This document shows positions 17,510 to 35,053 of a stretch of 38,689 bases of DNA, piece after piece. The stretch is from a virus. The notes below the pieces were generated by a model that saw only the letters and a list, made by a program, of their open reading frames with translations, was not told the DNA's origin and ran no database searches. Position 1 is the stretch's first letter, and every line of letters begins with the position of its first letter. Position numbers and translations under genes: made by a program. The stretch is from IMG/VR virus record IMGVR_UViG_3300007735_000704, positions 1 through 38,689 of that record, one strand, 5' to 3'.

Positions 17510-19492
17510 TCAAGCCATTTCCGAGGAGGTCAAGACCACTTTCATGTAGCCTCGCGCCTGCTGTTGTTGACCGTCACTACGGTGAATGTGGTTCGACGGG
17601 ATGGCTTGGTGTATCTCCAGCATGAGTTCCGCTGCCCGGCGCTGGAAGCGCTTGTCCGGTTCAGGCCCCCATTCCTTGTTGTTGCACATCGCCATGTAGG
17701 CAGCATACAGCTCCTCGCTAGTAATACTATCCGACGACATACTGCTTGCCCGTATGTGATTCACTACAAAGTATCTCACACTGTCGCTCTCGCTCAACAA
17801 GTTGTCTATCATAGCCCGCTGCCTCTCGGTCACCGGGAACGGCCTGCCGGCCTGCATGACCCGGCACAGATCCTCCGCGCCCTCCAGGAACCAGTTCAAT
17901 ATACCGCTGCCCTCACGCTCAATCATCACGTCGTGATAATTCGGAATCACCTTCTCCGGCTTGGGCTGGCTGAAGTCGAGCAGTAGCAACCGTCTCGACC
18001 ACGCACCCAGGTCGCCCTGCACATTCACCTTCAGCCGGCTATTGGCCGTCACAATTACGTTCCAGTCGCCCACCACGGCCTTGGCGCCGCTTTTCCCCTT
18101 GAACTCCACGGCCAGCCTGTCGCCGCCGGTCAGCGCCTTCAGGAACTGGCTCTCCTCGCAGTTCAGGAAGTCCGGCGGCACATCGCTGCCAATCAGCAAT
18201 GTCCTATCATGGAAGTTCCCTAGCTCAAACCGGCTGCCCAAGTGATTCGTTCTCAGCTCGCTGCAGTTCTCATCGCCCACCAACCGCCGCACCAGCCCGG
18301 CCACCGTTGACTTCCCACCGCCGCCAGTGCCCGTCAGCAGCAATATCACCTGCGGCCTGTTCCGCTGCAGCAGGGCCAGTCCGCCCCAGCGCTGCAGCAG
18401 CACCTGATCCTCGCGCTCGGGCAGCGCATGATCCAGGAAGGCCTGCCACATCCCGCTGCCGGCACCCTGCACATACCGCACCGGCGTCTGGTTCCTGCTC
18501 ATCCACTCCGGGCCAAACCCGTGCATGGCATATGGCACGCTCCTCAGATCCACCATCACATTGCTGCAGTGCACCACGCTGTCGGGCCTCGAGAACGGAT
18601 TGCGTTCGACCTGCAGCGCCCCAATCAGGTCGACCACCTGATCCGCGAAGCTCACGGTCAGCCGCGTCAGGAGCGCCGGCAGCCGCGGATCCTCTGTCGA
18701 TGCCATCTGATCCAACAGAACGCGCCTGGCGGTCTCCAGGACGCGCTGCTGCATCTCCTCGCGGCTCATGGATATCCAGATTCCCCTGTCCGCGGCATAC
18801 CAGTAGTGCTGCCCGGTCTGGGCATCGAAGAGCAGCCGCTCCTTGTGCGCCATGTACCCCGCGAAGAAAGTCGGGTGCAGATTACCAGTACCGCTCCTCC
18901 CGAACGTCCAGGGCACGCCATGCAGCCGGAGCAACTGCGCCATCTCATCCCTGCTGCCCGGCACCGGCCAGCCCTCGGGCCACCGTATCTGCGAGAACGC
19001 CAGCTCCACCGGCGGCCTGTCCACCAGCACGCTGTACTCGCACCCGCTCGGGTGCACGCCCTTGACCGTGCTCAGGTTGCCGGTGCTCCGCCACTCGTAC
19101 AGCGGCTTGCCCATCACCCGCCCATTCACCTCGACCATCTCGGTCGTGCTCCGCTCCGCGCACGGCTTGGGATAGGCGCCCGTGATCCTGACGCCCACCT
19201 GAGCCCCGCGCTTGCCCTTCCACCTTGCCGACCCCTGCAGCACCGGGTTCACCTTCAGGAACGCCTCCAGGCTACCCTCATCATCGAAGTCAATCGCGCA
19301 CAGCCCGCCGGAGAACTCCCCGAGCCTCACAGCCACGTTCCCGTGCTCCAACATGACCCGGTACACGTCCCTCTTCGTACTCTCCATGGTCTCCTGGGTG
19401 TACTTGACCATCGGTATCTTGGTGCCCGGGCTCTGCGGCACCAGGAACAGCGGCGTGCCCAGCCAGCCCTCGATCTCTTGCGTCGTCATCAT
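17510..19492 (-). CDS. Primase-polymerase fused to SF3 helicase
   Basis: The 660-residue protein has an N-terminal AEP-type prim-pol domain (LCAIDFDDEG, acidic cluster at about residues 67-72; a strand-rich part ends near residue 165 at VKGVHPSG). A C-terminal D5/P4-type SF3 helicase domain has Walker A GTGGGGKST (388-396), an acidic LLIGSDVPP stretch and an arginine-rich SRRLLLLDF segment. It primes and possibly extends DNA and unwinds the fork. The zinc-finger primase partner follows with a four-base overlap, and the methyltransferase gene overlaps upstream (ATGA). A phage/plasmid primase is the closest family; some members polymerise as well as prime. Confidence 0.85.
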   Translation of the reverse strand: MMTTQEIEGWLGTPLFLVPQSPGTKIPMVKYTQETMESTKRDVYRVMLEHGNVAVRLGEFSGGLCAIDFDDEGSLEAFLKVNPVLQGSARWKGKRGAQVGVRITGAYPKPCAERSTTEMVEVNGRVMGKPLYEWRSTGNLSTVKGVHPSGCEYSVLVDRPPVELAFSQIRWPEGWPVPGSRDEMAQLLRLHGVPWTFGRSGTGNLHPTFFAGYMAHKERLLFDAQTGQHYWYAADRGIWISMSREEMQQRVLETARRVLLDQMASTEDPRLPALLTRLTVSFADQVVDLIGALQVERNPFSRPDSVVHCSNVMVDLRSVPYAMHGFGPEWMSRNQTPVRYVQGAGSGMWQAFLDHALPEREDQVLLQRWGGLALLQRNRPQVILLLTGTGGGGKSTVAGLVRRLVGDENCSELRTNHLGSRFELGNFHDRTLLIGSDVPPDFLNCEESQFLKALTGGDRLAVEFKGKSGAKAVVGDWNVIVTANSRLKVNVQGDLGAWSRRLLLLDFSQPKPEKVIPNYHDVMIEREGSGILNWFLEGAEDLCRVMQAGRPFPVTERQRAMIDNLLSESDSVRYFVVNHIRASSMSSDSITSEELYAAYMAMCNNKEWGPEPDKRFQRRAAELMLEIHQAIPSNHIHRSDGQQQQARGYMKVVLTSSEMA

Positions 19493-20586
19493 AGCAGCTC
19501 CTTGATCAGCACTCGGAAGGCCCGCTCTGCTGTTGCCGGCACAACTCCATTCCCGAGCAATCGCAGCTCGTCCGTTCTATTGTCACAGGAGACACGCAGC
19601 TCGGCATAGTCCATCCCACCGGCAGACCCATCAGTGTCTCGACCCAGCGTGGGTTGAGTTTCGCATGGTTTACCCCCTCGCAAATGGCTACACGCTCCTC
19701 GATGTTTGCTTTGTCCAATTGAGTTGTTTTGCTGCCAAACAGGTTCACTTCCGTTGTTTCGCTTCGAGATTCCCCTGGGCGCGACATCTGCGTTCTTGGC
19801 GTCGGCCACTGCTTCACCTGCGCCGTCAGCGGCATTGTCGCCACATCCCCCTTCTCCTGCCTCGCCTTCCATGTCTCCGGGTTCTCGTCCGTTGTCTTGC
19901 CAGCCCTCGGCGTTGCCCACAACCCTCGGCGGCTCCCATCCGTATTGCTGCTCGCCGGGGCGGGAGGGCCAGACATCTCCGCAATGTTGACCGCATCCGG
20001 CAGCAGGTCGCCCCGCATCTTGCCATCCTTGCGTTGCAGCGTCGTGTAGCAGCCCTTCCAATCCCGTGCCGAGCTTGTGGGCCAAGATGAACACTCGCTT
20101 TCTCTGGTGAGGCGCACCGCATTCAGACGCGCTGAATATGCCCCACGTCGTTCTGTAACCCATTCCTGCCAGGTCTTCGATGACGTCGGACAGCCCCAAC
20201 GAGATATGTCCTTCGACGTTTTCAAAGAAGCAGCACCGAGGTCTGAGAAGTCGAATTCCGTCTGCGATGTAGGGCCACAAGTGCCTTGGGTCGTCCTTGC
20301 CTCGGCGTTGCCCGGCTGCGCTGAATGGTTGGCAGGGGTAGCCTCCAGTGAGGATGTCCACTCGGTCGCGAAACGCTGCCCAAGGGAAGGTCTTAAGATC
20401 CGGCCAGATAGGTGCCGGGTCCATGAGTCCCGCTTCCATTTTGCTGACCAAGTTCGCAATGGCAAAGGCTTCGATCTCACAAAGAGCGACTGAGCGCAGA
20501 TTTGGGATTGCTCGGTGCAGTCCAAGCTCAATGCCTCCGTATCCAGCGCAAAGGCCGATATGTGTAACTGCTTTGGAAGTATCCAT
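19489..20586 (-). CDS. Cytosine-5 DNA methyltransferase
   Basis: From the ATG at 20586 (365 aa) this has the m5C methyltransferase motifs in order: AGYGGIELGL (I), GGYPCQPFSA with catalytic Cys 85 (IV), ENVEG (VI) and QRKRVFIL (VIII). The last are GNGVVPATAERAF (IX/X). A target-recognition region lies between VIII and IX. A strong AGGAGG lies 10 bases before the ATG; a second ATG at 20607 is possible. No restriction enzyme is nearby, so it probably protects phage DNA from host restriction. A second frame, also fully open, overlaps almost the entire gene. Confidence 0.85.
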   Translation of the reverse strand: MDTSKAVTHIGLCAGYGGIELGLHRAIPNLRSVALCEIEAFAIANLVSKMEAGLMDPAPIWPDLKTFPWAAFRDRVDILTGGYPCQPFSAAGQRRGKDDPRHLWPYIADGIRLLRPRCCFFENVEGHISLGLSDVIEDLAGMGYRTTWGIFSASECGAPHQRKRVFILAHKLGTGLEGLLHDAATQGWQDAGRPAAGCGQHCGDVWPSRPGEQQYGWEPPRVVGNAEGWQDNGREPGDMEGEAGEGGCGDNAADGAGEAVADAKNADVAPRGISKRNNGSEPVWQQNNSIGQSKHRGACSHLRGGKPCETQPTLGRDTDGSAGGMDYAELRVSCDNRTDELRLLGNGVVPATAERAFRVLIKELL

Positions 20587-20591
20587 GTCAT
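19506..20591 (-). CDS. Overlapping +1 frame in the methyltransferase locus
   Basis: This 361-codon frame is open across nearly the whole methyltransferase gene. Its ATG (20591) forms an ATGA with the helicase stop and sits five bases after AGGAGG, a better spacing than the other frame has. From residue 169 it contains three copies of a WPT/WATP motif (SWPTSSARDW, LWATPRAG, QWPTPRTQ) and LNPRWVETLMGLPVGWT (312-328). I recognise all of these from the target-recognition region of a different phage m5C methyltransferase family. It may be a real dual-coding gene or a fossil of a frame switch. Confidence 0.4.
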   Translation of the reverse strand: MTWILPKQLHISAFALDTEALSLDCTEQSQICAQSLFVRSKPLPLRTWSAKWKRDSWTRHLSGRILRPSLGQRFATEWTSSLEATPANHSAQPGNAEARTTQGTCGPTSQTEFDFSDLGAASLKTSKDISRWGCPTSSKTWQEWVTERRGAYSARLNAVRLTRESECSSWPTSSARDWKGCYTTLQRKDGKMRGDLLPDAVNIAEMSGPPAPASSNTDGSRRGLWATPRAGKTTDENPETWKARQEKGDVATMPLTAQVKQWPTPRTQMSRPGESRSETTEVNLFGSKTTQLDKANIEERVAICEGVNHAKLNPRWVETLMGLPVGWTMPSCVSPVTIERTSCDCSGMELCRQQQSGPSEC

Positions 20592-21853
20592 TCCGCCCTC
20601 CTCTCAAACGCCAACGCCTCCTCTGAAATAAACCAGCCCTTCGGCCACTCGGTCAGGTAGATACCGCCCAGCGTCCGCACCCGGCTCAGGGCGACGTAGG
20701 CCTGCCCGGGCTCCCGGGCCGCCCTGATATCAATCCTCGCGGCATCCAGGGTCAGTCCCTGCGCTCGGTGTATGGTCATCGCGTAGGCCAATCGGAGCGG
20801 GTATTGTTGGACGGTCACCCCCAGCGACTCAAAGAACCATTTGCGCCGGCCCAGTGAAATCTTATGCCCGCGGCTCTCGACCACGATGTCGCTGCCCCGG
20901 AACTGGACCACCCGGCCCACCTGGCCATTGTAGAAACCCTGCTCCGCATCATTCGCGGTGAACATCACGGCAGCTCCGGGCTTCAACTGCAGCACCCGCG
21001 GCGTGCTCATGTTCTTGGCTGCGAACTCCACCGCCTGGTCAACGCCCTTAACCTCCGCATCGAACACGGCAATTGGGCCATCAATGCTGCTCAAGCGGTA
21101 GTTGTTCCACTTGTCCACCTGCACGTTGTGCGTCATCAGCCGGGTGATATGCTCCGGGGGGTTCATCCTGAGCGCACTGCGCAGCAACTGGTTATCCCGC
21201 GGCTTCATCCTGCCCACCCGAAAGCCACTCAGCATTTCAATGAACGGCACATCATTCTGCCGCCGGACCTTCTCCAGCTTGATCGTCTTGAAGTCGGCCT
21301 CTTCCCAAGCCTTGCTCAGGAACGCCCAATCGTAGGGCTTGCTCTGGTCGGTCCTAACCGGGGGCAACTGCAGGAAGTCGCCCAGGAATATCACCTGTAA
21401 CCCTCCGAAAGGCCGGCTGTCTTCTCTGATCCGTTTGACCCAATAGTTCAGGAAGTCTAGGTGCCGGCCCGCCATCATGCTGATCTCGTCGACCACGAGC
21501 ACCTCGGTGGCCCGCACGCGCTTCCGTGCGCCATGCACTGCCGGATGGCTCTCAAGCCTCTCAGCAGCCTGCAGGAAGTCCTCGCCATCCTGCGGCCCCA
21601 ACTGCATCCCGCACCAGCGGTGCACGGTGGTCCCGCCCACATTCAGCGCTGCGATGCCTGTCGGGGCCGTGATAGCCACGTCCCGAACTCCCACCACCCT
21701 GTTCAAGAACTCCCGCAGCAGCGTACTCTTGCCGGTGCCCGCCTGCCCCGTGAGGAAGACGTTCCCGAACGATTTGGCCCAGACCATGAAACGGTCCTCG
21801 GGCGTCGGATCGAAGTCGTCCCCGATCATATGGACAGACGGGCTGGCAATCAT
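20588..21853 (-). CDS. Pif1/Dda-like SF1B helicase
   Basis: The 421-residue protein has Walker A GQAGTGKST (36-44), APTGIAAL (motif Ia), VDEIS (121-125, motif II), GDFLQLPP (158-165, motif III), TIHRAQG (360-366, motif V) and YVALSRVR (386-393, motif VI). These are the motifs of 5'-3' SF1B helicases of the Pif1/RecD2/Dda kind. It likely unwinds DNA during phage replication or recombination. It is placed after the exonuclease gene and overlaps the frame B start of the methyltransferase. An N-terminal 28-residue leader precedes the domain. Confidence 0.9.
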   Translation of the reverse strand: MIASPSVHMIGDDFDPTPEDRFMVWAKSFGNVFLTGQAGTGKSTLLREFLNRVVGVRDVAITAPTGIAALNVGGTTVHRWCGMQLGPQDGEDFLQAAERLESHPAVHGARKRVRATEVLVVDEISMMAGRHLDFLNYWVKRIREDSRPFGGLQVIFLGDFLQLPPVRTDQSKPYDWAFLSKAWEEADFKTIKLEKVRRQNDVPFIEMLSGFRVGRMKPRDNQLLRSALRMNPPEHITRLMTHNVQVDKWNNYRLSSIDGPIAVFDAEVKGVDQAVEFAAKNMSTPRVLQLKPGAAVMFTANDAEQGFYNGQVGRVVQFRGSDIVVESRGHKISLGRRKWFFESLGVTVQQYPLRLAYAMTIHRAQGLTLDAARIDIRAAREPGQAYVALSRVRTLGGIYLTEWPKGWFISEEALAFERRAE

Positions 21854-27795: not shown

Positions 27796-28319
27796 GCCGG
27801 TGATATTTGAAGGTCGACCACATCCAGGATGGTGTAGATTTCAATGTCGCCGGTATTGGTCGCAACGCCAAGCCCATCCGGACTTTTCGCCTGCTGGGTG
27901 TAGTAGTCGAGCCGGTATGTGGTTGTCTTGTGCGGCTGGATACGCTCGGTCTGGTAGAGGTAGACGTTGGTCTGATTGTAGACGTAGGTGCTGACCGAGT
28001 AGCCGACCAGCACGTTGTTGGTGACGTCCCAGATGCGCGTGCGCGTGCCCGTGGTGCTGTGGAACGGGCTGATGACGCGGATCTGGTACTCGCCTGCCTC
28101 AACCGTGAACAGGTTGTTGGAAAGGCTCGTGATGATGCCGTAGGGGTCGCTGTGGATCGCATTCAGATCCCGGGTAGTCCAGGTGTTCGCCACCGATGCA
28201 CCACCGTTCACGCCGGTCGCCTTCTGGTCCTGCAGCGTAGCAATACGCAGCACCAAGGCGTCGACGTCCTTCCTGAGTTTGTTGATCAGGCTGGTGCTGG
28301 TCTGTGAATCGTAGCTCAT
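27792..28319 (-). CDS. Fibre-like protein with coiled coil and jelly-roll head
   Basis: The 175-residue protein begins with a short coiled coil (STSLINKLRKDVDALVLRI), then a beta-rich domain with the pattern TWTTRDLNAIHSDPYGIITS, EAGEYQIRVIS and TGDIEIYTILDVVDLQI. This resembles the trimeric jelly-roll (C1q/TNF-like) heads found on some phage fibres and structural proteins. It immediately follows the polyvalent gene with a four-base overlap. The role is inferred. Confidence 0.65.
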   Translation of the reverse strand: MSYDSQTSTSLINKLRKDVDALVLRIATLQDQKATGVNGGASVANTWTTRDLNAIHSDPYGIITSLSNNLFTVEAGEYQIRVISPFHSTTGTRTRIWDVTNNVLVGYSVSTYVYNQTNVYLYQTERIQPHKTTTYRLDYYTQQAKSPDGLGVATNTGDIEIYTILDVVDLQISPA

Positions 28320-31300
28320 TTGGCCTTACGTCGAAGAATTCTCTGGGCCTCGTCAAGGCTGGCCGCGATGCCGATCAGGCTGCCCGCGGGGCCGTAGAGG
28401 CGCAGGGAGCCCTTGGTCTTGCCCGGGATGGCCCGGTAGCCGCCCTGGAAGCTGTAGGCACCGGGCATGGAAGAGTCGGGCTGGGGCATATACCGGATGT
28501 CTTCCGATGTAGCCTTGAAGCGCTGCGAGAGCGGGATGACGTTGCCCTGTGCATCCTTGGTCACCGGATCGGCCAGCTTCACTTGGCTTGAGTCGGCCAC
28601 GTAGTAGATCCGCTCGTTGCCGGGCAGCTCGACGATGCCGGCCTTGGTCGGCTCTCGCTCCGCGCTGAAGTCGCGCATGACCATCCCGAGCGTTGCTGGC
28701 GTTGCTTGGAATACCGGAGTGTTCTGCGGGATGCGCAGGAAGACACGCTTTACCTCGGGCACAGCCTTTGTCGAGGACATGACTTTGGCAGCATCAATAA
28801 AGCTGGTGGCCAAGTCGGGATTGATCGGCTTCAGGTCCTTGGCATAGCCGCGCAGCTCCTTGATGAACTCCGGCACGTCCTCAATAGAACCCCAGTCGAA
28901 CTCGGGCAGCATACCGTCCTCGACCGAGGTGTAGCCCTTGGACGAGAAGTACTCCTGAGCAGCCATGTCGTCGTCGAACCTGCGCATGGCATCGTTGGCA
29001 ACGCGCAGACCTGCATCCAGTCGCACGGCCTCGTCACCCAGCCGCTTGGAGTAGTTCTCCGCAGCCTTCTGGTTGGTGGTGAACGAGAACGCCTCACGCG
29101 ATACGCCCGATGTCTCGCCACGCATCCGTTTGTTGAACACGTTGAACCCGCCTGTGGGCGTGCCGTGGTAGACAGGCCCGACGGTGTACCCCGCCGCCTT
29201 CGCAGCCTCATCGACCATCCGCTGCGCTGCCTGAGTGTCGCCCTTCTGCACCGCGGAGAGGTAGTCGGTGTCGGAGGGCATATAGCGCTGGGCGCCTACT
29301 TCGCCTTGGGGCTGCTGAGACGCCTCAGCGATGCGCTGCTTCGCTTCTTGTTGCAGCTTCACCGCAGTGTCGTAATCCACTGACGGCACCTTGGACTTAA
29401 CCTCGGCATAATTCTTCCCGGTGATCTGTGGGGCACCGGAAACACCGGGCAAGTCCCGAACCATCAGGACAACGTCGGGCTCGCCAGCCAGGTCGTACCG
29501 CCAGCCGGGCGGCGCGAACTCTCGATTGAACGGAACCCTGGCGACCGGGCGGAATCCCAAATTGCCGTAAAGGTTAGGAAGGAATCCATTGACGTCAAAG
29601 GCGTCTAGCGTCTGGGAGCGGTTTGCAGCCTCAGCTAAGATCGGCTTGATGTCGGCACTCGACTGGGGGTGCTTGAACACCGAAACAAGGTCGCCGTAGT
29701 CGGTGACTGCAACGCCGGCCAATCCGTCCTCAGACAGGAACAGCTTGGTGCTTGGGTTGGTGTAGAACTCGGTTCCCTTGTCGTCGACCGCAAACCCAAA
29801 CGGGTGCTCTACCTTGGTCCGCCGGATTGCCTCGGCGAAGTCTGATCCTCGAACTGCAGGGTCAACCCCGAACCGGCCGACCGATAGACGTCCGCCAATG
29901 TTTTCCTCGGCGCCTCCGGCTGGGAGGTAGCGGGCGGATTCTGGTCCCGCAGGTCCTCCCGGACTCCGGCCCGCATCAGGCCCGATACCTGCCGCACCAG
30001 CTCCTCCATCGTCGGCTCCGGGCCTTTGCCGGATTTGAGGGCGCTCTTGACCTTTGACTGAGAAGACATCGAAGACTCCTTTTGCATATTTTTCTGTGCG
30101 TTTTTCCGTCTCGGCGAACTTTTGCGCGAACTCAGGGTCGCCGTAAAGGTTTTCGGTCAAGAACTTTGCTGTAGCATCCAAGCTAGAATGTCCGACTGGC
30201 TCGTTCTTGATGATGTTCCAGGTCAACCAATGGATGTCGAAGGGCTGCGGCTCCCGCCCCAGCATCTCCCGCAACCATGGGCTTTCCGCGGCGATCTTGC
30301 GCATACCGTTCTCAATCAGCGAGTAGGCTGTCTCGGCTACCGTCTCGTTGTTGAGCATCCCACCGATGACCTTGTAGGCTCCGGTGGTGTCCTCGGGCAC
30401 ACCGTTGCGGTCATAGGCGAAAACCTCGGTGGAACCGCCTTGAGCCTTGCGGGCGGCAGCAGCCTTCTCAAGGTGCGGGAACCACAGATTGACAACCTGC
30501 CACCTGTCACCAACGAACACGTCATTGCGGGCCAGCGTTGCCAGAACGAACGAAAGCACCTTGTGCTTGATGCCAGCGCCTCCGAAACCCTTTTCGTTAA
30601 ACTGCCGGCGCATCTGCGGACCAGTGAGATCCGGATTGTTGATGATGCCAGTCAGCTCATCCCATCGACCGTTCCACCGAGACAGCATCTCGTGGAAGGC
30701 GTTGGCGTTCTGGATGGCATTGCGTCCTACCGAAACGTCGGGGAACTCCGACATCTTGGTGCTGACGATTTCCTTCCATTGATCCTTGGTGAACTTGTAG
30801 CGCCCCTCCACCGAGTCCTCGATAAGGCGCAGGACTTTCGGCTCACTGGTCAACCGAGCCCATCCAGCCTCTTGGTTGTACGGATCCAGCATCCGAGACA
30901 GAAGACCCCAGAACATATGCAAGGCCACCATCTTGGACGGTATTTGACCCTGACGGGCAAGCTCGTGGATAGGCTGCAACGCATTCAGACCACCGACAGC
31001 CGACTTGACCAGCTCAGGATTCCTTTGCAGACCGTCTTCAATAAACTTCCTGAAGGCGCCATTGTCCTGCACCCATTGCGCCAACCGCAATGGAGCTGGA
31101 GGCACCGAGGCACGCGAACCATTCAATGCCCGGCTGTAGGCTTTGATCCATCCATCAGAATCAAGTCCCAGGGCTGGGCTGTCTTTGACCAAATTCAACG
31201 CAGCATCCACCGCATTGAACATGGATGCGAACTTCTGCGGAGTGCCCGGGTTCAGGACGATCTTAGGCGATTTCGGGTCTGCCGGTTTTCCAGTAAGCTC

Positions 31301-34300
31301 GGTAACCGCAAACTGTCCTTTGATTTCCGGCTGAGAGATTGAAATGGTTGACTTCAGTACGGTCGGATCGCCAGTCAGCTCCTTCATAATTGCGGCCTTA
31401 GCCTTCTCTTTGGCCTCGCTGATAGAGAACGCCGAGATGGTTTCAGTCGCAGCCTTTTCACGGGCTGGCTTGCCCTGTGTCTTGGTTTTGTACGTGTAGT
31501 CGAACTGGTACAGCGAATTGACCGCACGCTGTCCTTTGACCGAACGGATGGCTTGGGTGGATGGCTGGCTTGGGTCGGCTTCTGAAGCCGCCATGAACCG
31601 CGCTCCTACATCCCCCTCTTGTCGAACCGCCCCGAGTTCTTGCCGGCCTTCTTCTCGGCCTTGCGTGCTGTCGATAGCGCGATTGCGACCGCCTGCTTCT
31701 GCGGTTTGCCGGACTTCATTTCCGACCGGATATTGCTGCTGACGGACTTCTGGCTGTAGCCTTGCTTGAGTGGCATAGTCTTTTTCTGCTTTGAGTTTTG
31801 CTTGTCCTTCGGTGTCGAAAATCCCGGCGGTTGATCCATCGGGGCCATACAGGCGGAACTTTCCGTTCTTCGACAAGATTCGATAGCCGCCCACCAGGTC
31901 GCTCTGGACGCTGGTCTCACCAACCTGCTCGGCAGGCTGGAAGTTGAGCTGGGTGCGGCGGTAGCTCGACTGCTCTCCCATGTCACCGGACCACGGGATT
32001 TCCGTTCCGGTGGTGTTGGTGTTCTGGACGCGCTCAATCCGCAGGTCCTGGTAGACCGACCCGCCCTTGCGACTGGCTTCGTAGCCAGCGGTCGGCAGGT
32101 TGATCATGGTGTCGCCCTTCTTGGGGACGGCGCCCATCACCTCATTGAAGAAGTTGCGCTTCTTGGCACCTTCAATACCGCCACCGAGAGCCTCTGCGGA
32201 AGGCGCGGCGTTCTGCTCCGCAATGTTCTTCAGGTACACGTCCTTGAGCGTGGACATGGCCTGATCGTAATTGCCGAACAGGTTCTTGTAGGCGGGCTTG
32301 GTCAGGGCCTTGTACATCCGGGCCTGCACTTTGCCCCAGTCGACAGCCTTGATGTTCACGCCACCCTTGCTGTTGATTGAGATCCCGTAGGGCAGGAAAA
32401 GCTTCTCGGACTCTCCGAACACGCCAGACTTGCCCGTGGAACCGTAGACCTTCCAGTACCTTCCCTCCATCAGCGTGCCGTCGCGGATGGCTGTGGCGAT
32501 GTCGATCAGGCTGCGCGATGTGGACGGGCTGAAGATACCGCTCTTCGACACAGCATCGGCCTCGGCAAGACTCAGCCGACCTTCGATGATCGGGTTGCCC
32601 TTAGCGTCGAGCCCGCTGACACTGCCACGCTCGTTCTGTGGCACAGTCTCAATGACCTGCATCGTGCGGTTGGCCACGTCCGCAGTCTTGGCGGCCAGCT
32701 CTGCCTTCGACAACGGCCTGACAATGCTGCCGTCTGGGGCAGTCATAAACAGATCCGAGTATCCCCGGGCCATGATCAGCGCATTCTGCTGCGCCTTGGT
32801 CATCTTGTTGATGTCCACCTTCTGCTCGGTTGGCTCGTAGCCTTCCTTCGGAGTCACCAAGTTCTTGATGGCATCTTCCATCCAGTCGAGCTTGATGCGC
32901 CGTCCGTTGGCGTCGTAGAAGGTACGGGCAACAGGGTCGAAACCAGCCTGCAATGCACGCCTAGTGAAACGCTCGGAGACAGCCTCCTTGGCGTTGTTGA
33001 ATGCTAGCTCAAAAAAGGACGGAATCCGACCCGGCAGCATCGTCTTCGGGTCTTTGCCTTTGAGCATTTCCTGCGTGTAGTACGCGGCAAACTCATCGGT
33101 GATGCGGTTGAGAGCATTGATCTGTTGTGCGCGTTCAAGAGCGGGATCAAATGCATCTCTTAACTCGGCTCGAATTCGGTCTGAAATGACGCGCCCACCT
33201 CTTGATTCAAGTTTGTCTGCGTAAGCGTTCGCAAAATCAGTGAACTGTTTCTTAAAATCAGGATCTTGAGATGACGTGTCGATGACCTTTCCTCCAAGCA
33301 TATCCTTTATTGCTTGGGTAATGCGTGCGTGAAGTATTTCGTGCGGAAGCGTATCTGGGCTAGCTCTGTCAACATTGATCAAGACGGTTGGCTTTCCGCT
33401 CTTGATGTTGTCTGGCCCAATCGAAACACCGGCATAGTTCACCGTCTGCAGAGCAGTCGGAACCGTGTCTGCATCGGTGTGGAAGATAACTTCAATTCCA
33501 CCGCTTTCAGCACCCGCAATTTCGGACAGAGCCTTGGTAAGCTGCTTGTTGTTGAGGCGTCCATACAAGGTAGCGCGTGCCTCGGAGTCCTTGATGGTCG
33601 AAGTTTGCTCTCCGGAAACTGGGTCAACGTAGGTGAACTGCACCTCGGTAGGCCGAGTGTTCAGATCGTCCACCGCGGTCTGTCGGACACGAGCACCATT
33701 AAACACGTTAGACTCAACAGCCTTGGCAATTTTGAATCCGCCATCAAAAACACCAAAGGCAGCGCCACTGCCAATAGCGGCTGAAATTGCGTCCGCCTCC
33801 TCTCCGCTCATTGCCGCAAGCAATCCACCACCAGCGGCAGCGCCTGTCATTGGAACAAGGATATTCGCAGCCAGCTTGACTGGTGTTTCAAGACCGCTTC
33901 TTGCAAGAGCGGTTCCTAGCGCACGAGCTTTTGAAGAAGCGCCTTCAGCAGCAGCAATGCGCTCCCCTGCGCCTAGAAGTCCCCTCTGGGTCGGAGTCAG
34001 CGCGGGACCACGTGATGCCGCACCGGCCTCACCAACAGTCTCCATTGTGGCCCCTAGGCCTTTGGTTGCACCAATTGCTTGGGATGCAGTTCCCAGGACA
34101 GGAACATTCATCGTAATTGGAATGCCGGCGGCTTCACCAACTGCAATCGTGGTCGTCCCTTTGGAGACGCCCTCCTGCACAGCCTGACCCATCTGCGGAG
34201 ATCCGGTGACTTTAGCGGTGAGGCTTCCAGCCAAATTCTCAGGAACACGCCCAAGCTGGCTTACACGTTCTCCTGCCCCCCTAAGCATTTCGGCTGCACG

Positions 34301-35053
34301 CGGAATCTGAGCAACAGCTTGTTGAGCCATTACGGAAGCCAGCTTTCCACCTCCGGCAAAAGCAATGGATGACGGGTCCGCAAGGAATCCACCGACTTCA
34401 AGACCAGCCTGACCAATGGCTTCCTGCGGGATGTTGTAGGTCTGCAGGAACTCTTGAGAAGCTGGAACGCGCTGCTCTTGAGGTGCATTGGCTAGCGCCA
34501 ATTTTCGATCAATGTCTGCTTTCTCAAGAAAATCTACATACTTGATGTCATCAAGCATGGATTCCATACGAGCGCGATCCTCTTTGCTTTGGATGAGAAG
34601 AGGAAGTTGATCAAGTTTGTCTACTATGGAAGCTGAGATTCCTCGGTATAGGCTTTGAGCCTTCAGCTTTGCTTGAATCGCTGTTTCGGCAAAAGTTGCT
34701 GCGGCAACGTCGCCCTCAGTGGCTCCTTCAGGAGGCTGATAAATGTCGCCAATGGCTTCTCCAAGCCTGTAAGGAAGCGCTGCAATGTGGGCCAGTCCCG
34801 GCCCAAATGCAGCGGCGGCTCCCTTCAGGTCGATTGACTTTTCCTTTCCAACCTTCAGGTAGTCGAGGAACTCCTGCTTGGTGGGAGTGTAGTCGGTCTG
34901 CGCTGCCTTGTACTGCAGCACCTTATTGTAGGAGTCCTCTGGGGTGGGATCGACCTCGATGCCTCCCTGCACAAAACCGCCTTGCGCCATCGGAGGCGCG
35001 GCTTGTTGCTGCGGCTCTGCGTCGACAACAATTCCGCCTTCAACGAATGGCAT
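28316..35053 (-). CDS. Giant polyvalent protein (metallopeptidase, acetyltransferase-like, ADP-ribosyltransferase)
   Basis: The 2245-residue protein is a multidomain phage polyvalent protein, probably injected with DNA to modify host targets. A zinc-peptidase HEILH motif lies at 571-575 in a helical region. An acetyltransferase-like segment is at about 1745-1865 (GFRPVARVPF...PDVVLMV). An ADP-ribosyltransferase domain begins with GPVYHGTPTGG (about 1960-2010). A GGYR/LRLYGP module is repeated at about 1055-1091 and 2203-2245. Short RYMP-like motifs sit at 1152, 1708, 1923 and 2187, at module borders. The N-terminal part (34 kb side) is lower in GC. Two small frames are embedded. Confidence 0.8.
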   Translation of the reverse strand: MPFVEGGIVVDAEPQQQAAPPMAQGGFVQGGIEVDPTPEDSYNKVLQYKAAQTDYTPTKQEFLDYLKVGKEKSIDLKGAAAAFGPGLAHIAALPYRLGEAIGDIYQPPEGATEGDVAAATFAETAIQAKLKAQSLYRGISASIVDKLDQLPLLIQSKEDRARMESMLDDIKYVDFLEKADIDRKLALANAPQEQRVPASQEFLQTYNIPQEAIGQAGLEVGGFLADPSSIAFAGGGKLASVMAQQAVAQIPRAAEMLRGAGERVSQLGRVPENLAGSLTAKVTGSPQMGQAVQEGVSKGTTTIAVGEAAGIPITMNVPVLGTASQAIGATKGLGATMETVGEAGAASRGPALTPTQRGLLGAGERIAAAEGASSKARALGTALARSGLETPVKLAANILVPMTGAAAGGGLLAAMSGEEADAISAAIGSGAAFGVFDGGFKIAKAVESNVFNGARVRQTAVDDLNTRPTEVQFTYVDPVSGEQTSTIKDSEARATLYGRLNNKQLTKALSEIAGAESGGIEVIFHTDADTVPTALQTVNYAGVSIGPDNIKSGKPTVLINVDRASPDTLPHEILHARITQAIKDMLGGKVIDTSSQDPDFKKQFTDFANAYADKLESRGGRVISDRIRAELRDAFDPALERAQQINALNRITDEFAAYYTQEMLKGKDPKTMLPGRIPSFFELAFNNAKEAVSERFTRRALQAGFDPVARTFYDANGRRIKLDWMEDAIKNLVTPKEGYEPTEQKVDINKMTKAQQNALIMARGYSDLFMTAPDGSIVRPLSKAELAAKTADVANRTMQVIETVPQNERGSVSGLDAKGNPIIEGRLSLAEADAVSKSGIFSPSTSRSLIDIATAIRDGTLMEGRYWKVYGSTGKSGVFGESEKLFLPYGISINSKGGVNIKAVDWGKVQARMYKALTKPAYKNLFGNYDQAMSTLKDVYLKNIAEQNAAPSAEALGGGIEGAKKRNFFNEVMGAVPKKGDTMINLPTAGYEASRKGGSVYQDLRIERVQNTNTTGTEIPWSGDMGEQSSYRRTQLNFQPAEQVGETSVQSDLVGGYRILSKNGKFRLYGPDGSTAGIFDTEGQAKLKAEKDYATQARLQPEVRQQQYPVGNEVRQTAEAGGRNRAIDSTQGREEGRQELGAVRQEGDVGARFMAASEADPSQPSTQAIRSVKGQRAVNSLYQFDYTYKTKTQGKPAREKAATETISAFSISEAKEKAKAAIMKELTGDPTVLKSTISISQPEIKGQFAVTELTGKPADPKSPKIVLNPGTPQKFASMFNAVDAALNLVKDSPALGLDSDGWIKAYSRALNGSRASVPPAPLRLAQWVQDNGAFRKFIEDGLQRNPELVKSAVGGLNALQPIHELARQGQIPSKMVALHMFWGLLSRMLDPYNQEAGWARLTSEPKVLRLIEDSVEGRYKFTKDQWKEIVSTKMSEFPDVSVGRNAIQNANAFHEMLSRWNGRWDELTGIINNPDLTGPQMRRQFNEKGFGGAGIKHKVLSFVLATLARNDVFVGDRWQVVNLWFPHLEKAAAARKAQGGSTEVFAYDRNGVPEDTTGAYKVIGGMLNNETVAETAYSLIENGMRKIAAESPWLREMLGREPQPFDIHWLTWNIIKNEPVGHSSLDATAKFLTENLYGDPEFAQKFAETEKRTEKYAKGVFDVFSVKGQERPQIRQRPGADDGGAGAAGIGPDAGRSPGGPAGPESARYLPAGGAEENIGGRLSVGRFGVDPAVRGSDFAEAIRRTKVEHPFGFAVDDKGTEFYTNPSTKLFLSEDGLAGVAVTDYGDLVSVFKHPQSSADIKPILAEAANRSQTLDAFDVNGFLPNLYGNLGFRPVARVPFNREFAPPGWRYDLAGEPDVVLMVRDLPGVSGAPQITGKNYAEVKSKVPSVDYDTAVKLQQEAKQRIAEASQQPQGEVGAQRYMPSDTDYLSAVQKGDTQAAQRMVDEAAKAAGYTVGPVYHGTPTGGFNVFNKRMRGETSGVSREAFSFTTNQKAAENYSKRLGDEAVRLDAGLRVANDAMRRFDDDMAAQEYFSSKGYTSVEDGMLPEFDWGSIEDVPEFIKELRGYAKDLKPINPDLATSFIDAAKVMSSTKAVPEVKRVFLRIPQNTPVFQATPATLGMVMRDFSAEREPTKAGIVELPGNERIYYVADSSQVKLADPVTKDAQGNVIPLSQRFKATSEDIRYMPQPDSSMPGAYSFQGGYRAIPGKTKGSLRLYGPAGSLIGIAASLDEAQRILRRKAK
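29809..30069 (-). CDS. Embedded small gene candidate in the polyvalent gene
   Basis: In another frame from the polyvalent protein, an ATG at 30069 is preceded at six bases by AAAGGAG and opens an 86-codon frame (MSSQSKVKSALKSGKGPEPT, then MEELVRQVSGLMRAG). It reads like a helical, soluble protein. The main frame is of low complexity here (Gly/Ala/Pro/Arg-rich), as often seen where two frames share DNA. No family is recognised. It could be a chance frame. Confidence 0.4.
   Translation of the reverse strand: MSSQSKVKSALKSGKGPEPTMEELVRQVSGLMRAGVREDLRDQNPPATSQPEAPRKTLADVYRSAGSGLTLQFEDQTSPRQSGGPR
31606..31776 (-). CDS. Embedded small phage protein (MPLKQG...PQKQAVAIAL family)
   Basis: In another frame from the polyvalent protein, an ATG at 31776 opens a 56-residue frame: MPLKQGYSQKSVSSNIRSEM, then KSGKPQKQAVAIALSTARKA. 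I recognise this sequence type as a widespread small phage protein, normally a free-standing gene. Recognisable sequence in the second frame makes overlapping coding likely. The main frame is low complexity here (Gln/Arg/Glu-rich). No good ribosome site is visible upstream. The function is unknown. Confidence 0.6.
   Translation of the reverse strand: MPLKQGYSQKSVSSNIRSEMKSGKPQKQAVAIALSTARKAEKKAGKNSGRFDKRGM

Follow-up and report, generated by a model that had tools for sequence, protein, structure and literature searches.

A viral locus encoding the catalytic and recognition halves of a putative heteromeric DNA methyltransferase in two overlapping frames

In the virus record IMGVR_UViG_3300007735_000704 (38,689 bases, hereafter the window), we found a minus-strand locus in which two overlapping reading frames divide between them the motifs of a 5-methylcytosine (m5C) DNA methyltransferase, and we consider it probable (about 0.83) that this one DNA stretch of 1.1 kb encodes a heteromeric enzyme, with frame A as the alpha subunit and frame B as the beta subunit. 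Frame A (19489..20586, minus) runs from ATG 20586 to the stop at 19489 and encodes 365 amino acids (aa), or 372 aa from an alternative TTG start at 20607 with the same stop, while frame B (19506..20591, minus) runs from ATG 20591 to the stop at 19506 and encodes 361 aa in the +1 register relative to frame A. An initial annotation of the locus had described both frames (365-372 and 361 codons) as fully open, and the coordinates agreed that neither is interrupted by a stop; the peptides it had quoted were likewise present in the frames to which it had assigned them.

The two frames were searched separately with profile methods, as the initial annotation had proposed. Frame A matched PF00145 (8.9e-32, residues 16-181 of the 372-aa form, motifs I-VIII only), phrog_363 (1.6e-55) and, by phmmer, M.HhaI (4.6e-8), and it was recognised by NCBIfam as well as by Pfam. 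It had been credited with all m5C motifs from PCQ to GNGV, which held for motifs I-VIII, including motif IV (PCQ) and motif VI (ENV), and for motif X (RLLGNGVVPATAERAF, approximately 19530..19580, minus, matching phrog_1008 positions 293-319), whereas no recognisable motif IX was found in frame A. Among the features of PF00145 members, motifs I, IV, VI, VIII and X are present in frame A, but the recognition domain and motif IX expected between VIII and X of the same chain are both in frame B.

Frame B matched phrog_1008 (1.4e-22 over residues 75-328, and 5.2e-24 in the genome search); no Pfam or NCBIfam model matched it, and a PDB sequence search with beta gave no match. The family phrog_1008 is the half of m5C methyltransferases that carries the recognition region, motif IX and motif X: it covers residues 196-388 of gp70 of Mycobacterium phage ShiLan, a single-chain m5C methyltransferase, where it shares its frame with the catalytic half (2e-61). 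A profile of 91 frame B sequences also matched the recognition half of ShiLan gp70 (hhalign, 96.8% probability, E 2.4e-10). Three recognition cassettes of beta (WPTSSARDWKG.., WATPRAG.. and WPTPRTQ..) occupy approximately 19662..20090 (minus), with a B-like codon signature across most of the span, and they are followed by motif IX of beta (LNPRWVETLMGLPVGWT, approximately 19608..19661, minus), which was located by codon signature and invariant residues. The residues L, N, W, V, E, L, M and P of this motif were invariant over the 91 betas, and the same DNA reads ..QPTLGRDTDGSAGGMDYAE in frame A. Alphas from bacterial genomes (e.g. L187-L204) shared the motif EPxVGRVAxGVPxRVDRLKxLGNAVVP, encoded by the same DNA as beta LNPxWVEWLMGFPxGWTDL, and beta motif IX may account, as a shadow, for most of the VGRVA part.

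Codon periodicity supported the suggestion of true dual coding made in the initial annotation. We aligned 77 relatives on frame A codons, so that A position 3 corresponded to B position 2 and A position 1 to B position 3; changes at A position 3 are always non-synonymous in B. Between close pairs, differences at A positions 1/2/3 were 0.22/0.10/0.12 in the recognition region and 0.12/0.03/0.29 in motif X. Fine windows sharpened the picture: A position 3 was near 0.01 and A position 1 at 0.2-0.4 in the cassettes and motif IX (0.007 vs 0.36 at A residues 313-324, within motif IX), and in motif X the signature flipped to A-frame periodicity (position 1 at 0.08, position 3 at 0.49). A residues 1-12 and 25-36 were B-like too, indicating that beta is constrained near its start, and one stretch of frame A inside the recognition region, WPSRPGEQQYGWEPPRV, had A-like periodicity. 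Moreover, in a set of 35 loci, of which almost all came from genomes of bacteria, diversity was 0.11/0.08/0.28 at B positions 1/2/3 of the IX region and 0.29/0.21/0.60 at A positions 1/2/3 of the X region.

Stop codons were depleted in both directions. Relatives had 0.12 frame B stops each vs 5.5 expected from synonymous codon shuffles of A, and the third frame, taken as a control, had 17.3 vs 16.5 expected from the same shuffles. For the window alone, shuffling gave a mean of 5.2 B-frame stops and none of 100 shuffles was open; a frame B open by chance was rejected on this count. Conversely, no frame A stop occurred in the recognition region of 76 sequences, a set from which frameshifted loci and those whose frame A is broken had been excluded, vs 5.1 expected from synonymous shuffles of B. 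The initial annotation had named two outcomes that would speak against dual coding, namely homologues with stops in frame B and frame B conservation no greater than frame A forces. Of the 77 relatives, only L143 had a frame B stop before motif IX; it is at B codon ~107, in a part of beta that does not belong to the conserved domain. Relatives whose motif IX escaped the search pattern were inspected by eye, and their B stops proved to come after IX. The conservation of frame B far exceeded what is forced by A.

The start region is compact. A single AGGAGG precedes the ATGs of alpha and beta (GAGGAGGGCGGAATGACATGG), in agreement with the initial annotation, and the two starts, 5 nt apart, together form ATGACATGG, the common ribosome-binding site and dual start AGGAGG..ATGACATGG spanning 20586..20612 (minus). 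The dual start was retained in 59/83 relatives, and the beta ATG overlaps, as ATGA, the stop codon of a helicase gene that lies upstream (20588-21853). We propose that both chains would be made from a single messenger RNA, on which the two starts share a ribosome-binding site and are coupled to the end of the preceding gene. S-adenosylmethionine binding would fall to alpha, together with the catalytic cysteine of PCQ, ENV and motifs VIII and X; the target-recognition cassettes and motif IX, which make up the small-domain half, would come from beta, and the two chains would assemble into an active enzyme whose specificity would be set by beta. Frame A would be largely an open spacer in the recognition region, the main reason for its openness there being that motif X comes next in this frame. 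Going by phage methyltransferases in general, shielding of phage DNA from host restriction would be the likely role.

Other explanations of the locus were weighed against this one. A programmed frameshift could join the frames into one chain, passing from A to B after motif VIII and back to A for motif X; related single-chain enzymes do carry these parts in one frame, and homopolymer tracts in some relatives could favour slippage. However, two shifts would be required, the window has no run of at least 8, beta has its own conserved start, and the B-like constraint at A residues 1-12 and 25-36 would be needless for a frameshift product, so that we regard this route as unlikely. It is very unlikely, in our judgement, that each frame provides a recognition domain of its own and so a second specificity, which the initial annotation had envisaged as one of two options from the resemblance of each frame to a recognition family. 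Both frames do remain open, and the conserved WPSRPGEQQYGWEPPRV in A keeps its A-like periodicity inside the region, but motif IX is missing from A, and B lacks catalytic motifs and so would be no alternative enzyme by itself. Since B has coding periodicity in the recognition region and A is there mostly an open spacer, we read the locus as a single module for recognition (B) joined by a single one for catalysis (A).

The most unlikely explanation, already contradicted by the codon signature, is that the enzyme consists of frame A alone, B being open incidentally and conserved only through the constraint on A. The catalytic motifs are indeed in A, the frame that Pfam and NCBIfam recognise, and the N-terminal half of beta overlaps strongly conserved catalytic DNA, where some similarity is forced; yet a near-frozen A position 3 beside a variable position 1 in the cassettes and motif IX is the reverse of A-only coding, stops in B are rare, and other methyltransferases carry the B sequence in frame, as their recognition half. 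Some observations nevertheless weigh against the two-subunit enzyme that we favour. The periodicity figures come from pooled pairwise counts, which are not independent, and are effect sizes, not p-values; one relative (L030) has a frame A stop inside the recognition region with frame B intact; and an AlphaFold2 model of beta alone was poor (predicted local distance difference test score, pLDDT, 57; predicted template modelling score 0.26). An AlphaFold2 model of a fused relative (L270) had a methyltransferase fold, closest to M.HhaI (6.8e-16), and most of its cassette region was below pLDDT 50, so the model did not reveal the cassette fold.

The two-subunit reading can be set beside known systems. 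In M.EcoHK31I the smaller gene is reportedly nested in another frame of the larger, as the beta gene is in the window. This two-polypeptide enzyme (YGGCCR) has motifs I-VIII and X in its larger chain and motif IX in the smaller, with the predicted recognition domain in the larger chain (PMC3404938). The window's alpha and beta divide motifs I-VIII, IX and X in the same way, and by this partition the window enzyme may work like M.EcoHK31I; unlike it, the window has the cassettes in beta, a beta as long as alpha and one ribosome-binding site for both. M.AquI (CYCGRG) is also a split m5C methyltransferase, with its break in the variable region (PMC3404938), but it has motif X in the small subunit, whereas motif X is in alpha in the window, apart from motif IX in beta.

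Shelly gp56 belongs to the beta family and lies in the +1 register within a cytosine methyltransferase gene, and K1G APL43_gp35 has, by annotation, the same nested arrangement; both differ in being labelled merely 'DNA methyltransferase' or 'internal gene', with no stated role. The multispecific m5C methyltransferases of B. subtilis phages are single chains read in one frame. They are described as having several consecutive recognition modules (Trautner et al. 1996, cited in PMC12707154) and so resemble the window in layout, with several cassettes in series, although in the window the cassettes lie in a separate frame. In the open literature M.EcoHK31I and M.AquI are mentioned briefly, and we found no other account of the nested family there.

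Among the relatives we found fused, split and nested forms. Besides ShiLan gp70, 16 loci were fused (regular-expression classification). Split pairs, with alpha carrying I-VIII and beta carrying recognition, IX and X, were found in Maminiaina (gp84/gp83), Arthrobacter phage DrYang (gp77/gp78) and a Brevibacillus locus (L252), which follow the partition of M.AquI. Nested loci like the window, with I-VIII and X in alpha and the cassettes and IX of beta inside, included Shelly gp55/gp56, C72C1 and others, and Shelly gp55/gp56 ('g55 internal gene'), K1G and fTaEco01 were annotated as nested pairs. JKSyngboy (L168) and KyMonks1A (L170) had a different partition, with IX and X in the alpha frame and the proximal cassettes in the +1 frame. 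All these forms can be read as one evolutionary series. In Komagataeibacter phage phiKX2 (L348), an HNH-like stretch in the beta frame, at about 2300-2700, apparently separates motif IX from motif X.

We scanned 84,980 species genomes for LNPxWVExLM and obtained 376 relatives; because the query was beta, the set is biased towards nested forms. Among the best 80 of these 376, 59 could be classified by regular expression, 17 lacked the IX pattern and 4 lacked PCQ. In 58/59 classifiable loci, motif IV was in the +2 frame relative to IX with no intervening frame B stop, and motif X was in frame A in nearly all of the 59. The record titles named Alphaproteobacteria, Acidobacteria, Desulforhopalus, many Firmicutes, Bacteroidetes and Nitrospirales, and the nested layout is one that recurs across bacterial phyla.

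The recognition regions of frame B are built of blocks beginning W/L-P-T-P. The 59 betas compared for this (L008-L166) had 1-6 blocks each and showed 54 architectures in all, the same blocks recurring in different places in a combinatorial shuffle; the counts are approximate, as blocks were cut by regular expression. Two block types carry poly-C or poly-G (L173, L175, L177, L181, L178-L180, L070 and L080; L182-L186), in which C9 and G9 hold the two frames in register and C10 and G10 disrupt it. L173 (C9) and L175, L177 and L181 (C10) were identical over 300 flanking bases and differed only in tract length, and all 12 runs of C9+/G9+ in 430 kb of retrieved loci lay within these cassettes. Sequencing error was rejected as the source of this variation, given the identical 300-bp flanks and the occurrence of C9 or C10 in separate contigs; assembly error is possible. 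The length-variable tracts thus look like a phase-variable contingency switch in some relatives. A switch had been raised in the initial annotation for the window itself; with no homopolymer run of at least 8 the window is not such a phase-variable locus, and the idea is plausible only for the tract-bearing relatives. More tentatively, and with somewhat less than even odds, phages of many phyla might exchange cassettes as dual-frame units in which neither frame may be interrupted, each adding or changing a target specificity of the nested two-subunit enzyme, with tract cassettes serving as slip switches that turn the enzyme or its downstream cassettes on and off.

If the proposed enzyme is real, many phage and prophage 'DNA cytosine methyltransferases' would be the catalytic half only, their recognition half being encoded in another frame that is passed over in standard annotation, and this would bear on the expression of such genes, on the prediction of specificity and on models of overlapping-gene evolution. 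One enzyme that occurs fused, split and nested would also provide a natural series for studying overprinting. Elsewhere in the window, a large open frame of 2245 aa (28316-35053, minus) was observed, which is very large for this genome.
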